From Pseudobdellovibrionaceae bacterium (GTDB lineage Bacteria > Bdellovibrionota > Bdellovibrionia > Bdellovibrionales > UBA1609), in contig JABJQG010000041.1 in assembly GCA_018663505.1 (NCBI GenBank), positions 1 through 64,000 of the forward strand: a stretch of 64,000 bases of DNA, read 5' to 3'. The position numbers and the translations under genes were made by a program. Every line of letters begins with the position of its first letter. Position 1 is the first letter of the stretch. The notes beneath the pieces were generated by a model. It was not told the DNA's origin. It was given only the letters and a program-made list of their open reading frames with translations, and searched no databases. Shown in pieces: positions 4,725-36,300 of this stretch.

Positions 4725-5948
4725 GTGGAAAGTAGCCAGCGAAAAAAAGCGCTATTTATTATTTTTATCACTGTGTTTATTGACCTTGTTGGATTTGGCA
4801 TAATAATCCCCCTCTCTCCTTACCTTTCTCGTGAATTTGGGGCGTCGGCACTGCAAATAGGTTTGTTAATGGCCATATATTCATTGATGCAGTTTGTATT
4901 CTCACCTTTTTGGGGCCAACTCAGTGATAGATTCGGTCGTAGACCAATTATTTTGATGAGTGTGTTTGTTGCCGGAGTTTCACATCTTGCCTTTGCTTTT
5001 AGCACTGAGTTTTGGATGTTATTTGTAGCAAGAACCTTTGCTGGAATTGGAGGGGCAAATATCTCTACGGCCATGGCATATATGGCTGACATTAGCTCCA
5101 AAAAGGATCGGTCTAAAACTATGGGGCTCATTGGTGCTGCATTTGGATTAGGTTTTGTGTTCGGTCCCTTTATTGGTGGAATATTTGGTGAGGTTGGGTC
5201 GTCACTGGGCTCAGCGGCTCCCTTTGGTAAGAGCTTTTCTGCGGTAATAGCATCTTCAATTTGTCTATTAAATTTTATTTTTGCTTTTTTCTATTTAAAG
5301 GAATCTAGACAAGTAAATGCTGAGGTCACAGCCATAAAACTGTCAAAACGCATTAAAGTTATGTTTTTTCATCTTAAAAAAGAGACGGTGGGGTCTCTTA
5401 TGTTTTTACTATTTATGACGACCTTTGCCATGGCGCATATGGAGGCCACACTTTTTTTATATGTGAGTGATGTCTTTCATCTTGGCATGAAAGAAGCCAG
5501 TTTTGGTTTTGCATATGTGGGGGTGGTCATGGCATTTACTCAAGGTTATTTAATAAGAAAATGGCTACCAAAATTTGGAGAACGCAGTTTGTTAGTGTGG
5601 GGGGCCCTAATGGCTGGCATTGGATTTTTAATGATAGCTATGGCTCCAAATGTACTGAGCCTTGGGGTGGCAGTTACATTCTTAGCTATAGGAATTGGTT
5701 TGGTAAACCCCTCTTTGCATGGAGGAGTCAGCTTATTGAGCTCATCTGATCTTCAAGGGGAAGTTATGGGGGTTAATCAGAGCCTTTCAGCATTAGCCAG
5801 AATAATTGGCCCTGCCACTGGAGGGTTTATTTATGATCAAGTTAGCTTGAGGTCGCCCTTTTTCATTGCCGCGGGATTTATGGGTTTGGTGTTTTTTTTG
5901 TCCATGAAAATCTACTCCAAAATACCTAACTCGGCAAAAACAGAGTAG
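4725..5948 (+). CDS. MFS drug:H+ antiporter-like exporter (TetA/DHA1 type)
   Basis: The 407-residue inner-membrane protein has about 12 membrane helices. Motif A of the major facilitator superfamily is clear between TM2 and TM3 (GQLSDRFGRRPI). The N-terminal DLVGFGIIIPLSPYLSREFG matches the start of TetA-like DHA1 antiporters, and TM4-TM5 carry GLGFVFGPFIGG, the antiporter motif C. The start is GTG at 4725, 5 nt after AGGAG; an overlapping ATG at 4723 is in another frame. DHA1 members export drugs or metabolites in exchange for protons; the substrate cannot be read from the sequence. No adjacent regulator is seen. Confidence 0.85.
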   Translation: MESSQRKKALFIIFITVFIDLVGFGIIIPLSPYLSREFGASALQIGLLMAIYSLMQFVFSPFWGQLSDRFGRRPIILMSVFVAGVSHLAFAFSTEFWMLFVARTFAGIGGANISTAMAYMADISSKKDRSKTMGLIGAAFGLGFVFGPFIGGIFGEVGSSLGSAAPFGKSFSAVIASSICLLNFIFAFFYLKESRQVNAEVTAIKLSKRIKVMFFHLKKETVGSLMFLLFMTTFAMAHMEATLFLYVSDVFHLGMKEASFGFAYVGVVMAFTQGYLIRKWLPKFGERSLLVWGALMAGIGFLMIAMAPNVLSLGVAVTFLAIGIGLVNPSLHGGVSLLSSSDLQGEVMGVNQSLSALARIIGPATGGFIYDQVSLRSPFFIAAGFMGLVFFLSMKIYSKIPNSAKTE

Positions 5949-27336: not shown

Positions 27337-29886
27337 ATGAGGGGAAAATTGAAAGTGAAAAATAGTGACACTTACAAGAGATTAAATATAAAGGTGTCTG
27401 GCATTGTTCAGGGCGTTGGATTTCGCCCAGCTATTTATCAATTAGCCTCTCAATTACAGTTAAAGGGCAGAATAAAGAATTTGGGCCATTGTGTTTCCAT
27501 TAGCCTGGAGGGTCCTAAATCTCGATTAGAAGAGTTTCAACAGAGTTTTTATGAGAACTTGCCTCAAGAGAGTGAAGTGGAAGAGTTGGAACTGCATTGG
27601 GCGGAACCCCAGGGGCTGACTCAGCTTCTGGTGGAAAAAAGCAAATTGGAAAGTATTGAAAATATCTCCATACCAGCAGATCTAGTAACCTGTGAGTCTT
27701 GTTTAGAGGAGTTTTACGACCCCAAAGATAGACGCTTTTTATATCCCTTTATCGCCTGTACGCATTGTGGGCCAAGATACTCCATTGTTAATAGTTTGCC
27801 TTATGACAGGGAAAACACGAGCATGAAGGACTTTGTTTTTTGTAAGTCTTGTAATCTCGAGTACACATCCCCTAGTAATAAACGTTTTCACGCACAAAAT
27901 TTTGCCTGTGCACACTGTGGACCAAAACTTACAATTACAGATAGTCTGGGAAAGAGCATGGAGCTTACTACCCCACAACAACAGTTAAGTTTTATCGATG
28001 AAAAATTAAAACAAGGTAATATTTTAGCTTTAAAGGGTATAGGTGGGTACCAGTTAATCTGTGACGCCACCTCTGAGCTAGCTATTCAAAAATTACGTTT
28101 AAGAAAAGGCAGGCCTCACCAGGCCTTAGCAATGATGGTGAGAGATGAAAGTTTACTCAATGAAAATATTAATGTCTTAGAATTTTTAAAAAGTAAAGCC
28201 GGTCCTATAGTCATTGTAAAAAACAGTTATGGCTTACCATTGGAACAATTAGCTCCAGACACAAATGATTTAGGAATATTTTTGCCAACAAGCCCGTTGC
28301 ATCTCTATTTATTTGGTGCAAGACAAGTTGAGGCTCCTTTAAACTTTCTCGTGGTCACTAGTGGGAATATTCATGGGGCCCCTATGGCCATAACTGAACA
28401 ACAAGCTTTATTTCAACTTAAAGATGTGGCCGATTTCTTCATAACTCATAATAGACCAATTTTGCGCAGTGTTGATGATTCTCTTGTAAAGCCTATCTCA
28501 TTATCTCCTTCTTTACTTTCGGGAGAAACTTTATTGGCAACACCCAAAGGCTCAAACATGCGGTTCTCGCCCTTTGGGCTGCGATCCGAACTCGCTTTGT
28601 GCGCTGCCAATAAAGTTTCTCCCGAAAGTAAAGAAGGAGATAATGAGATAGGCGACCAGCATCCGTTAAGAAAATTTAAATTTTTAAGAAGAGGACGGGG
28701 GTTTGCCCCTACAACAATAAAAATGAAAAAAACGCTTTTTCCAATAATTGCATTTGGAGGCGACTTAAAAAACACTTTCTGTGTTACGCAGAATCAAAAA
28801 CTACATGTGTCTCCACATATGGGAGATTTATATAATGCTCAATCTTATAAGCACTTTATTCAGAGCATCGGCGATTTTTTAGATTTTACTCAGATAAAGC
28901 CAAAAGCTGTTGTTGTGGATATGCATCCTGGCTATGCCTCTACTCAGCAAGGTAAAAGCTTTGCTCAGGAAAATAATTTACCTTTGATCGAGGTACAACA
29001 TCATCTGGCCCACGCGGTGAGTGTGATGAGTGAAAATAATTTGTCAAAGTCCATTGCCTTAACTTTTGATGGTACAGGTTACGGCACTGACAATAGCCTT
29101 TGGGGCGGGGAGTGCCTGTATGTTGATTTATCAAAACCACAATGGACACGTGTTGCATCTTTAGAGCTGATGTATTTATTGGGTGGAGAGAAGGCTGTTT
29201 TAGAGCCAAAGCGTTTGAGTTATGAGCGGTTGCAAAATAGTAATATCAAAGGAACGGTGATCCTTGAAGGTGATGAAGATTATAAGCAATGGCATCAGCT
29301 TTATGAGAATAAAAAAATGTTTCCAACCACCAGTTCTATGGGACGCTTATTTGATGCTGTAAGTGCTTTACTATTGCCTCAGTATTCTAAAATTTCATAC
29401 GAGGGGCAAGCGGCCATTGCTTTGGAAAGTTTAGCTAAAGCGGCCACTAGGGGGCGTGAATACTCCATTCAATGGCTAGAAGAGAAAAATAAGTCAGTAA
29501 GTGATGGTAGAAAATTTAATCTAAGTTCCCGTGTTAACACATCTCACCTTTTTGCACAGATTTATGAAGATCAACAACATGGTGTAGCTATTAGTGAAAT
29601 TGCTTTTGGTTTTCATTTGGCTGTGGCCCAAATAGGATTAGAGATGGCTCAAAAAGCACAATTTCAACATGATGAGAATCATATTTGTTTATCTGGAGGG
29701 GTGTTCTTAAATTCCCTCTTTTGTGATTTAATAACTGAAAAACTTCATGTTAATGGATTTGAGGTTTTTGAGCCTGTTGATTTACCAATTGGCGACGGCG
29801 GTTTATGTTTAGGGCAAGCTATGTATGCCTCGCTACTTATGGAAAAGGGATTTAAACAAAGCATAGCGGAGATGACATATGCATGA
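27337..29886 (+). CDS. hypF: Carbamoyltransferase HypF with an in-frame palindromic insertion
   Basis: HypF uses carbamoyl phosphate and ATP to make the thiocarboxamide on HypE that becomes the cyanide ligands. Domains in order: acylphosphatase-like (IVQGVGFRPAIYQLA), two zinc fingers (CESCLEEF, CTHCGP, CKSCNLEY, CAHCGP), a YrdC-like domain ending RPILRSVDDSLVK, and a Kae1-like domain (VQHHLAHAVSVM and LSGGVFLNSLF). Residues about 386-439 are extra relative to the family and are encoded by a 163-bp inverted-repeat element in the linker before LRRGRGFAP. Start is ATG 27337, two nt after GGAG; TTG 27349 after GAGGGG is possible. hypA overlaps the 3' end by 8 nt. Confidence 0.93.
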   Translation: MRGKLKVKNSDTYKRLNIKVSGIVQGVGFRPAIYQLASQLQLKGRIKNLGHCVSISLEGPKSRLEEFQQSFYENLPQESEVEELELHWAEPQGLTQLLVEKSKLESIENISIPADLVTCESCLEEFYDPKDRRFLYPFIACTHCGPRYSIVNSLPYDRENTSMKDFVFCKSCNLEYTSPSNKRFHAQNFACAHCGPKLTITDSLGKSMELTTPQQQLSFIDEKLKQGNILALKGIGGYQLICDATSELAIQKLRLRKGRPHQALAMMVRDESLLNENINVLEFLKSKAGPIVIVKNSYGLPLEQLAPDTNDLGIFLPTSPLHLYLFGARQVEAPLNFLVVTSGNIHGAPMAITEQQALFQLKDVADFFITHNRPILRSVDDSLVKPISLSPSLLSGETLLATPKGSNMRFSPFGLRSELALCAANKVSPESKEGDNEIGDQHPLRKFKFLRRGRGFAPTTIKMKKTLFPIIAFGGDLKNTFCVTQNQKLHVSPHMGDLYNAQSYKHFIQSIGDFLDFTQIKPKAVVVDMHPGYASTQQGKSFAQENNLPLIEVQHHLAHAVSVMSENNLSKSIALTFDGTGYGTDNSLWGGECLYVDLSKPQWTRVASLELMYLLGGEKAVLEPKRLSYERLQNSNIKGTVILEGDEDYKQWHQLYENKKMFPTTSSMGRLFDAVSALLLPQYSKISYEGQAAIALESLAKAATRGREYSIQWLEEKNKSVSDGRKFNLSSRVNTSHLFAQIYEDQQHGVAISEIAFGFHLAVAQIGLEMAQKAQFQHDENHICLSGGVFLNSLFCDLITEKLHVNGFEVFEPVDLPIGDGGLCLGQAMYASLLMEKGFKQSIAEMTYA
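28491..28653. repeat. 163-bp palindromic element inside hypF (49-bp perfect inverted arms)
   Basis: Arms 28491-28539 and 28605-28653 are perfect reverse complements over 49 bp. The 65-bp spacer contains a nested stem CCCAAAGG/CCTTTGGG. The whole element is translated in frame within hypF, giving residues of the type LSPSLLSGETLLA (left arm) and ANKVSPESKEGDNEIG (right arm). It encodes no transposase and looks like a MITE-like or Rickettsia-palindromic-element-like insertion. Pairing breaks sharply at both ends. Confidence 0.92.
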
Positions 29887-32256: not shown

Positions 32257-33263
32257 GTCAGCACATTCATATGAATCATGGCTCTGGTGGGCACCCCTTC
32301 GAAGCACTATTAAAAAAAATTATACTACCAGCATTTGATAACCCTTATTTAAATCAGCTAACTGATGGCGCATTATTGGAGTCCGTGGAAGGACGACTAG
32401 TGATGACCACCGATGCTCATGTAGTAAGTCCAAGAATTTTTCCAGGTGGAAGTTTAGGTAAGCTAGCTTTTTGTGGCACCGTCAACGACCTAGCAGTAAT
32501 GGGTGCTAAGCCACTTTACTTAAGTTTATCTTTAATTATTGAAGAGGGCTTTTCACTAGAAGAATTAAAACTGCATATTGGTCATATGGCAAAACTATCA
32601 AAACAATGCTCAATTCCCATAGTAGCAGGGGATACTAAAGTTGTGGAGCGCGGAAAAGGTGATGGTCTATTTATGACAACTTCAGGAGTGGGAGTGATTG
32701 AAAACCCGGAGTTGTATCCTCAGCCTAAAAATATTTCTCCCGGAGATATGATTCTTATTAATGGTCCAATAGGAAATCATGGGATTTCTGTTTTAGCCGC
32801 TCGAGAAAATTTAGATTTTCAATCAGAGGTAGTTAGTGACTGCGCCCCGTTACAGGATTTAATATTACCCTTGTGGAAACGCTTCCCGGAAATTCGATGT
32901 ATGCGAGATCCCACACGTGGTGGCGTAGCAGCTGTAGCTAATGAATTAGCCAGTCAATGTGAATTAGAAATGGAGCTTTTTGAACAAAAAATCCCCGTGG
33001 AAAAGTCAGTGCGATCGGCCTGTGAGCTCATGGGTTTTGATCCCTTACTTCTTGCAAATGAGGGCAAAGTTATTATTTTTGCTCCAGAAAAAAGTGTACA
33101 TGCCATATTGGATGCAATGCGCTCTCATGAATTAGGAACTGAATCTGAAATCATAGGGCAAGTCCACAAAGGCCCACGGCCTTTAGTGCGATCCACCACA
33201 GCTCTTGGGGGTAGCCGTCTCATCCCTTGGCCTTCCGGAGAACAGTTACCTAGGATTTGTTAG
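32253..33263 (+). CDS. hypE: Carbamoyl-dehydrating hydrogenase maturation protein HypE
   Basis: HypE dehydrates the carbamoyl group from HypF on its C-terminal Cys to a thiocyanate. It belongs to the PurM/ThiL ATPase family, with NHGSGGHPFEALL at the N-terminus, MTTDAHVVSPRIFPGG and FCGTVNDLAVMGAKP. It ends in PRIC, preserving the essential terminal Cys. It is the last hyp gene; the next gene is convergent. Confidence 0.95.
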   Translation: MSQHIHMNHGSGGHPFEALLKKIILPAFDNPYLNQLTDGALLESVEGRLVMTTDAHVVSPRIFPGGSLGKLAFCGTVNDLAVMGAKPLYLSLSLIIEEGFSLEELKLHIGHMAKLSKQCSIPIVAGDTKVVERGKGDGLFMTTSGVGVIENPELYPQPKNISPGDMILINGPIGNHGISVLAARENLDFQSEVVSDCAPLQDLILPLWKRFPEIRCMRDPTRGGVAAVANELASQCELEMELFEQKIPVEKSVRSACELMGFDPLLLANEGKVIIFAPEKSVHAILDAMRSHELGTESEIIGQVHKGPRPLVRSTTALGGSRLIPWPSGEQLPRIC

Positions 33264-33318
33264 TGTAGAATTTTGTTCGACTCTGTAATTCGGTGAGAGA
33301 AGAAACAGGGCCTGGCAC

Positions 33319-36300
33319 CTAATCTCTTAAGCGCCTAATGTCATCTGAAATTCGGATGAGGGCTGGGAAAAACAAACCTGTCATTATAGAGCCAAAGGCT
33401 ATGCCCCAACCTAGCGCTAAGGCAATAGGAATAATGAAAGGGTCTGAGCCACCTAAGCCAGTGAGCTTTTGTACTGTTTCTCCATATGCTGTGGGGAGCA
33501 GTCCACAAATGGTTGTGGTTGTTGTTAATAAAATGGGTCTGAGGCGAACACCTGCGGCTTCTACAATGGACTCATTTAATTTTTTCCCCTTAGATCTTAG
33601 TACGTTTACAAAGTCAGTAAGAACGATGGCGTTATTTACAATAATCCCAGCTAGTGCAATGACACCAAGGATGGCCATAAAACTAAAAGGTCTGTTATGC
33701 AAAATCATGGCATAGACTACGCCCATGAATCCCATTGGGATAGAGCCAAGAATGACAAAGGGTTGTACTAAACTTCTAAATGTGACAACTAAGAGAAAGA
33801 AGATAAATATGGCTGCAAATAAAAAGGCTACACCAAGGGACTTCATTGAGTCATCGGTGTCTTCTTTTTCCCCACCCATTTCATATTTATAAGATTTTTG
33901 TCCTTGTATATTGATCTTATCAATCATCTCTTTAACAAAAGGCTCAGCCAGGGCATTTACTTCGGCACCAGTAATAAGATTGAGGTCCACATCCGCTGAA
34001 ACATTAATTACCCTTTTAAAGTTCTTATGAGTGATGGCATTTACTGTTTTTTGTTTTTTAAAAGTGGCTATTTGATCTAACGGTATAAGGTTGCCTAGTG
34101 GATTTTCGATTTTTATATTTTTTAATTTGTTTAATATTTTACTAGGTTGGTCTACCATTTTTACACGAATATTGATCTCGTCATCTAAGTCACGAATGCT
34201 GGAGGCAATAAGACCTTCAAAAGCAGCTCTCACAGAAGATGAAACCATGGCTGCATTGATATTCAACATAGCCATTTCTTTTGAGTCAGGTTTAATCAAC
34301 CACTCGTCTTTGCCAAAAGCATAAGAATGCTTGATATCAATAACACCATCAATGCTTTTTAATTTATCCACAAGTAAATGGCTTTTACTATTGAGTACCT
34401 TAAAATCATCACCCATCAGGTTAATGGAAATAGTTCTTCCTTGGGGGGGGCCTGGTTTAATTAGCTCAGTTTTTACACTAATAATTCCCTTTGGAACAGT
34501 AAGTTTATCTCTAAGCTCTTTTGCAATTTCATCAGCTCCACGGGCCCTTTTAGTGTTTGGTGTTAGGGTCACCTGAATGTTGGCGTAGTGAGAACCTCTA
34601 CGAGTCTGCGGATCATTGGGATCTTGTTGAATAATACCTATAGTTGAAATTTGACTCTCGAGCTCCAAAGGGTCCATTTGAGCAATTGAGTCTTCAATGG
34701 GTTGAATGAGGTTTGCCATTTCTTCAATAGACGTTTCTTTATGGGCTTCAATATGAACAAAGAAAAATTCAATTCCATCTGGTGGGAATAAAACAAATCT
34801 TCCACCTACTTTTAATAATGCTCCAGTTCCAATGGCTAGAGCAACAATGAAAGTTAAGATTTTATAACGATTATTGATGCTCCAAAAAACATACTTTTGA
34901 TAAGTGTGAATGAGTTTGTCTATAAATCCTTTTTTCTTTTCTTTTTTTGCTTTTATTTTTTTTAAAATATCTTGAGCAAAGGGTCCTACCCAAGAAACAA
35001 AATGTGAAGGCATAATGATGAAGGCTTCAAACAGTGAAAAGAATAACGCAAGAATTACGATTAAAGGTATTTCATGAATGAATGAGCCAAAGATACCCGA
35101 CATAAACAACATTGGAGCAAAGGCGGAGACAGTGGTGAGAACAGAAGCTATAACGGGGCCAAATACCTCAGAGGTTCCATTAACAACAGCTTCATGCATA
35201 TTGTCGCCGCTTTCAATATGACGCCAAATATTTTCAGACACAACAATGGCGTCATCTACCAGCATTCCTAGAACTAGGATTAATCCAATTAGGCTAATGA
35301 GGTTTATGGTGAAACCGCCCATATAGATAGCGCCAATAGCTGAGAGTAGGGCGATGGGAATACCCACCGCAACAATAATTGTGACCTGCCAAGGCAAGAA
35401 TATAGAGAGAACAATAAGGACAAGCAAAAGCCCTAAAAGTAAATTGGAAGTTAAAACTCCAATTCTATTTTTTACGAATTTTGAATGATCTTTAGCGAAA
35501 CCTAATTGAAAAGTGGTACCCAGTTTAGATTGAAGTTCTTCTGCTTTCGCTCTAACATTTTCCACAAGTGTGAGTACATCGGAATTTTCTTTTTTAAAAA
35601 TTACCAAATGAATGGCATTCTTACCTCCAGCTTTATAGGCCCGCACAGGTTTTTGCAGTTTATAAGCTACAGTGGCCACATCATTAATGGTGGTTGCAAA
35701 GCCAGCATCATTGGCCTTAAGTACGGTATCTTTAATCTGTTTTAATAAAACCTCACTATTACTTGGATCGTTGTAGTATTCAGAATCGGTTTTAATGAGA
35801 AGTTCTTGTCGATCTTGATTTAAAGTGGTTCCCGAAGGTAAGGATACATTTTGCAGGTTTATGCTTTTGACAATATCGTTGAGCCCAACATTTCTATTTG
35901 ACATTTTTTGCGGATCAGTTTCAATCCAGATTTCTTGATCTCTATACCCATTTTTATTTACTTTAGAGACTTCTTTCAAATCTATAAGCTCGTCATATAC
36001 ATATTTTGCTGCAGCACGGAGTCGGTCTTCATCAGCATCACCAGCCACAGTAAGGGTGATAATTGGCATTTGACTAGCTTCGATTTCTTTAACTAAAGGA
36101 TCTTCAGCATCATCAGGAAGAGTGTTCATGGATTCAATAGCTTGTTTAATATCATCATTGGTTTTATCAGAGGCTCTGCCGTCAATATCCAGTTGGATGA
36201 TAGTAACTCCAACCCCTTCTGTGGCCGTGGAGAATATTTTTTTTATACCCTCAACACCTCTAAGAGCCTCTTCCACTGGGTTTACAATGAGTTTTTCGAT

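Follow-up and report, generated by a model that had tools for sequence, protein, structure and literature searches.

The hypF gene studied here is interrupted in frame by a palindromic element that belongs to a dispersed family, and the members of this family have a nearly constant core flanked by long arms that are private to each copy and yet match each other within it. Since the core stays the same and the arms differ but match, the two arms of a copy must change together. The family is probably a non-autonomous hairpin element of MITE/REP/RPE-like type whose stems are kept symmetric by template-switch conversion while they drift, with one copy having landed in frame in hypF.

The window that was analyzed is the whole 64,000-nt stretch of DNA, and the palindrome in hypF is the sole long gapped inverted repeat within it. 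A sequence-only reading had described two perfect 49-bp inverted arms around a 65-bp spacer, and both a check of the sequence and a repeat search confirmed this arrangement; together with an alignment of HypF proteins they place the whole element at 28491..28653 on the forward strand, as are all of its parts given below. The left arm (28491..28539) has a sequence private to the hypF locus and the right arm (28605..28653) is its exact reverse complement, as determined by the repeat search and by searching the arms back against the genome. The spacer between them (28540..28604) is a core of subfamily 1, and similarity searches of the genome found it to be common to at least 40 copies. If three mismatches are allowed, the pairing reaches 59 nt (95%). 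On the left side, between the outer stem and an AAAG/CTTT stem, lies an asymmetry that is conserved in nearly all copies (28540..28545), with 28540, 28542 and 28544 mismatched against 28604, 28602 and 28600. The internal loop is made up of the conserved motifs CTCARACAWGCRG on its left strand (28551..28563) and CCGAACTCGC on its right strand (28586..28595), and the tip is a hairpin, GCCC-TTT-GGGC (28569..28579), that covaries between subfamilies. An 8-bp nested stem had been noted in the spacer; it is present (CCCAAAGG at 28543-28550 with CCTTTGGG at 28571-28578) but peculiar to the hypF copy, and what the family conserves as its inner stem is the tip hairpin instead. The net insertion is probably 28492-28653, that is 162 nt or 54 codons, with G28491 belonging to a native AAG codon.

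The reading frame of hypF (carbamoyltransferase HypF, 849 amino acids; 27337..29886, forward strand) is unbroken across the palindrome, which adds residues 386-439 (54 residues) to the protein. HypF scores 665 bits against the NCBIfam model TIGR00143 (hypF), for which the cut-off is 466, and the open reading frame, Pfam and NCBIfam together indicate a domain-complete protein with an in-frame interruption. The insert had been placed between the YrdC-like and Kae1-like domains, and the Pfam matches, Sua5_yciO_yrdC at residues 223-392 and HypF_C at 469-566, agree with that position. It had also been proposed that the added residues are foreign to a normal HypF linker. In an alignment of HypF homologues, a short linker joins DDS(V/L) to an R-R/A-x-R-G motif in every one of the 17 further HypF proteins obtained from the phylum, and the absence of the added residues from all of them favours insertion. 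The structures 3vth and 4g9i align to HypF on either side and skip the insert. Because its domains are complete, HypF is taken to be functional with the added loop; the insert may also be bypassed during translation. The gene is followed by hypA, a gene for a HypB-type GTPase and hypD, and upstream of it, on the opposite strand, are genes for NADH-dehydrogenase-type subunits resembling HoxF and HoxU. The sequence-only reading centred on a palindromic insertion like that of a mobile element, in frame and in a permissive linker between two HypF domains, and likened it to the Rickettsia palindromic elements (RPEs); these points are supported.

When the 163-bp sequence was used as a query against its own genome, about 40 places were found and the match was confined to the core. 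Of the arm and spacer that had been put forward as the repeat, therefore, the spacer is dispersed and the arms occur nowhere else in the assembly. The count of 40 copies comes from similarity searches of the genome and is a lower bound. These copies are spread over many contigs, not in arrays; they are 123-187 bp long, and their inverted arms, which extend ∼28-60 bp outside the core, are different at nearly every locus. The cores form three subfamilies of 26, 10 and 4 copies, whose members are 95-97% identical to one another in the 45-nt inner core. A scan of GTDB genomes with the core pattern, in which records of the own genome may be left out, returned assemblies of Bdellovibrionales only. 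A covariance model of the core, with 12 candidates scored per genome in 369 genomes of the phylum, exceeded 60 bits in G000, G007, G012, G047, G048 and G216 and gave weaker matches in others. The assemblies of four other genomes carry the same core with private arms, and the exact core was not found in the viral contigs of IMG/VR. Related copies also form short arrays in G048 (C229 near 5026-5330 and C117 near 33052-33340; L150 and L144). Other repeats were seen as well. One long palindrome (L014:88-270) has 64-bp arms, a 55-nt loop and an unrelated core, CATCACCCTTCGGGTGAGCG, and is possibly a second family with the same architecture. The flanks of G048:C143:8647 and G048:C62:26114 (L143 and L152) hold further long palindromes, whose cores are divergent and whose arms are similar to the TAAATAATTTCCCC consensus, and short repeats of the GTCATTCTGAGCAAAGCGAAGAATCT type flank L148 and L205 (G048), apparently as another dispersed repeat.

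Within a copy the two arms are 98.7% identical, and they are perfect in 24 of the 40 copies. They differ from each other at 23 of 1794 positions, and 14 of these differences are transitions that would give a wobble pair on one strand. Between copies, the identity of the 35 nt beside the core is 54, 47 and 59% in the three subfamilies, compared with 51, 47 and 53% for shuffled arms. For 36 copies (all except L063, L064, L068 and L069) the arms were used as queries against the genome, and each was found at its own locus only, twice and inverted; being unique to each locus, the arms were rejected as a dispersed repeat. The perfect arms in hypF had been explained either by recent insertion or by correction between arms. 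As all 40 copies have near-perfect arms, perfection is no sign of a recent insertion; correction between the arms is supported.

Among pairs of copies whose arms are still alignable, 29 differences occur in both arms and 3 in a single arm. In the nested copies L002, L003 and L005, ∼25 nt of the stem is variable yet perfectly paired and is enclosed by conserved blocks, which places the variation of the stem within the unit. There is also a diffuse, weak arm consensus, ATTAAATAATTCC...TTTT...ATTTGGAATATTTAACACC, that is common to subfamilies and genera. From the paired differences, the nested copies and the shared consensus it follows that at least many of the arms are homologous and have changed in concert. 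In the nested palindromes (L002, L003, L005 and L020, in G000:C26, C27, C27 and C54, respectively) an element sits in the tip of the core of another element, and the outer stem of L002, L003 and L020, 59-69 bp, is still perfect over a loop of ∼200 nt. Several right arms contain RBS/ATG-like motifs; most of the frames that follow them end after a few codons, and the motifs may just reflect the purine-rich arm.

From the outside in, the element consists of the outer stem, a short asymmetric bubble, the AAAG/CTTT stem and a large internal loop, followed by an inner stem that covaries and by the tip hairpin. The strands of the internal loop (CTCARACAWGCRG/GAACTCGC) are nearly invariant. When 19 cores from several genera were aligned, 93% of the cells paired, compared with 67% in shuffles, and 15 of 20 pairs changed on both sides. 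The outer pairs mirror the symmetric arms, and the inner and tip stems covary as well. The predicted fold is stable on both strands. A search of Rfam 15 gave no match over the gathering score, only sub-threshold matches to miRNA precursors.

Among the 34 copies with a called left neighbour, 27 lie 3′ of a co-oriented gene (p = 0.0008, based on a mechanical ORF call), and the median distance from the stop codon to the copy is 18 nt. The usual place of the family is the 3′ UTR, and insertion into coding sequence is exceptional (hypF, 1 of 40 copies). Of the three forward frames of the hypF copy, the only open one is the one in use. Across the family, 14 of the 120 forward frames are open; read-through of the element is therefore possible but not typical. 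One copy (L010, G000:C1:214543) is located at the stop codon of a gene of 123 amino acids, which its position suggests is rbfA-like, and has a truB-like gene on its other side.

Comparison of related genomes shows occupied and empty sites. An element in G047 (C44) lies between two convergent genes whose counterparts in the congener G048 have overlapping stop codons (TTAA), without any arm sequence. The element in G048 C243 is absent from the orthologous place in G047, and that in G047 C187 from the orthologous place in G048; at L138, L139, L145 and L146 the empty-site alignments were too diverged for placement of boundaries. Loss instead of gain is formally possible at the empty sites. In either case, the core and both arms come or go as one unit. 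No direct repeat longer than 3 nt, as expected of a target-site duplication, was found at the arm ends. In the relatives, C is found immediately to the left of the arms (-1) in 20 of 25 cases (p ∼1e-11) and T immediately to the right in 16 of 25, and from these skewed flanking bases the element seems to have a defined, asymmetric end.

We believe that these properties are best explained by a mobile hairpin with concerted stem evolution. The conserved core would be what a mobilising or binding protein recognizes. Template switching by DNA polymerase within the hairpin would copy a new mutation from one arm to the other, and with arm-to-arm copying far faster than point mutation the sequence of the stem would drift in concert. 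Based on the residual difference of ∼1.2%, and assuming mutation-conversion balance and neutrality, we estimate that conversion outpaces mutation per site by a factor of the order of 150. What entered the inter-domain linker of hypF would have been a copy with a single open frame, adding 54 residues to a HypF that presumably still functions. Creation and repair of hairpin stems by template switching have been documented (PMC8794818), and this is the same mutational mechanism that we propose for perfect stems; the evidence in that study comes from RNA genes, mostly with short stems, whereas here it is a multicopy natural series with stems of 40-60 bp. Template switching at quasipalindromes is expected to leave differences between homologous stems in both arms, and this was the case (29 paired versus 3 one-arm differences).

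Mobility may be of the single-stranded hairpin, REP-like type, possibly brought about by the REP-associated-tyrosine-transposase-like (RAYT-like) proteins of the genome. The genome has 9-10 loci for Y1 transposases, and the two proteins that were checked match REP_Tyr_transpos below the NCBIfam cut-off. In the six Y1 loci fetched, no core was found beside a RAYT-like/Y1 gene, and Y1 genes occur also in relatives without a core hit, which makes RAYT presence uninformative as a marker of element presence. For these two reasons, a link between RAYT and the element is a guess.

Against a model of drift, the arms of subfamily 2 are no more alike than shuffled arms though their cores are 97% identical; pure drift would require either arms that evolve far more rapidly than the core or a core under strong selection. 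In addition, the mismatches beside the core are unrepaired, which calls for selection or a barrier, since unrestricted template switching should repair them. Consequently, part of the probability stays with an alternative in which what is inherited is limited to the loop-side core and a few flanking bases. Each insertion would then receive, at once or soon afterwards, a new and private stem that is perfectly self-complementary, made for instance by foldback copying of DNA that was newly added or captured. Such renewal would account for the random arms of subfamily 2, for arms that are found nowhere else in the genome and for the sister copies L018 and L019, which have a core variant peculiar to the two of them and are alike only over the last ∼11 nt before the core. 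However, homologous arms with paired substitutions exist, an arm consensus is common to different genera, the nested copies vary between two conserved blocks, and in the cleanest empty site (G047 C44 versus G048) the arms are not derived from the target. On balance we regard renewal of the stem as rather unlikely.

Selection at the level of RNA is a further explanation, in which the element is a 3′-UTR RNA hairpin whose stems vary by compensatory mutation under selection for pairing. The co-orientation just past stop codons, the covariation of the inner and tip stems and the stable predicted fold on both strands are consistent with it. On the other hand, wobble-type positions make up only 0.8% of the arms (14/1794), helices of 40-60 bp that are perfect in 24 of 40 copies go beyond the expected need of an RNA, Rfam offers no family beyond generic long hairpins, and the hypF copy sits in coding sequence. 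We therefore consider this explanation improbable.

It is very improbable that one arm is the original flank, duplicated in inverted orientation around an inserted core. Each locus does have unique arms, and the hypF core plus one arm amounts to 114 nt, which is in frame; however, the stems vary inside nested copies, and native flanks as the source of the arms were rejected by the best empty sites, which have neither arm, and by the HypF alignment, in which no homologue has a longer linker that could be a native arm. Integron attC sites, the folded recombination sites after a stop codon, were rejected as well and have hardly any probability: the copies do lie after stop codons and the ends of the subfamily-2 core (TCTAAC...GCTAGA) resemble R boxes, but the RYYYAAC/GTTRRRY boxes do not fit, as conservation does not extend to the GTT/AAC pair (GCT) and the other subfamilies lack the boxes, the copies are scattered and not arrayed, and no integron integrase exceeds the cut-off, the best match being a recombinase beside an IS91-like gene. 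We know of no attC sites with perfect stems of 40-60 bp outside the R boxes. The locus with this best match to the integron-integrase model (L106, G000:C27:138315-140363) contains an IS91-like transposase ORF beside a tyrosine recombinase frame broken by a stop, at a contig end. Inverted chimeras produced by assembly or amplification are just as remote a prospect, for although the assembly is a draft, the same core with private arms recurs at 40 loci and in the assemblies of four other genomes, the arms end at defined points, and hypF is in frame on both sides.

The favoured reading, a hairpin element with concertedly drifting stems, has likenesses to several known systems. MITEs have terminal inverted repeats common to their copies and target duplications. 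In this strict sense the proposal that the insertion is a MITE fails, since the arms are private, so that conserved terminal inverted repeats are absent, and no target-site duplication exceeds 3 nt. The bacterial MITEs (Correia/NEMIS, RUP, ERIC) are similar in being dispersed long hairpins of 100-200 bp that are present or absent between species, and the element differs from them in the same two features, its variable termini and its lack of a duplication >3 nt. A hairpin with a nearly invariant internal loop, no target-site duplication and an asymmetric end would, by analogy, recall REP elements. As in the REP/RAYT system (PMC3733652), there is an imperfect hairpin with conserved bulges in extragenic positions, without target duplication and with RAYT-like genes in the genome, and a short conserved tag marks one foot, here A-S-Y-C in the relatives. 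In contrast, REPs are 20-40 bp long, with stems mostly of 6-9 bp and a GTAG/CGTC tag, compared with a private stem of 28-60 bp and A-S-Y-C here, and in the loci examined here no RAYT gene lies beside a copy.

RPEs are dispersed palindromic repeats of ∼105-150 bp that are found in frame in genes for conserved proteins, leaving the host domains intact (PMC2229807). The element resembles them, and the protein-coding palindromes of Wolbachia, in being a dispersed palindrome (123-187 bp, at least 40 copies) with an in-frame insertion, in hypF, that leaves the domains intact. The likeness drawn here is one of form and placement, and the element differs in belonging to another phylum and in having a coding insertion in only 1 of 40 copies. 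RPEs are also reported to lose arm identity with time (PMC6649704), whereas here the arms stay identical within a copy and diverge between copies. The same report describes coding palindromes in the mitochondria of Nematomorpha, perfect long inverted repeats that are gained and lost and for which maintenance by conversion between the repeats was suggested (PMC6649704). These too are perfect long inverted repeats in coding genes, but their arms encode conserved protein and have no common core, in contrast to the dispersed element with a conserved core described here. The hypF insertion can thus be described, with partial support, as RPE-like in effect, not a MITE by definition and not simply recent.

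In-frame palindromes were already known; the new part is the private, co-evolving stems around a conserved core. With at least 40 replicate palindromes in one genome that have nearly the same core and different stems, concerted evolution of the arms is directly measurable, and such replicates bear on how long perfect stems arise and persist. The hypF copy extends in-frame protein-coding palindromes to the Bdellovibrionota, in a metal-enzyme maturation gene with an assayable activity.
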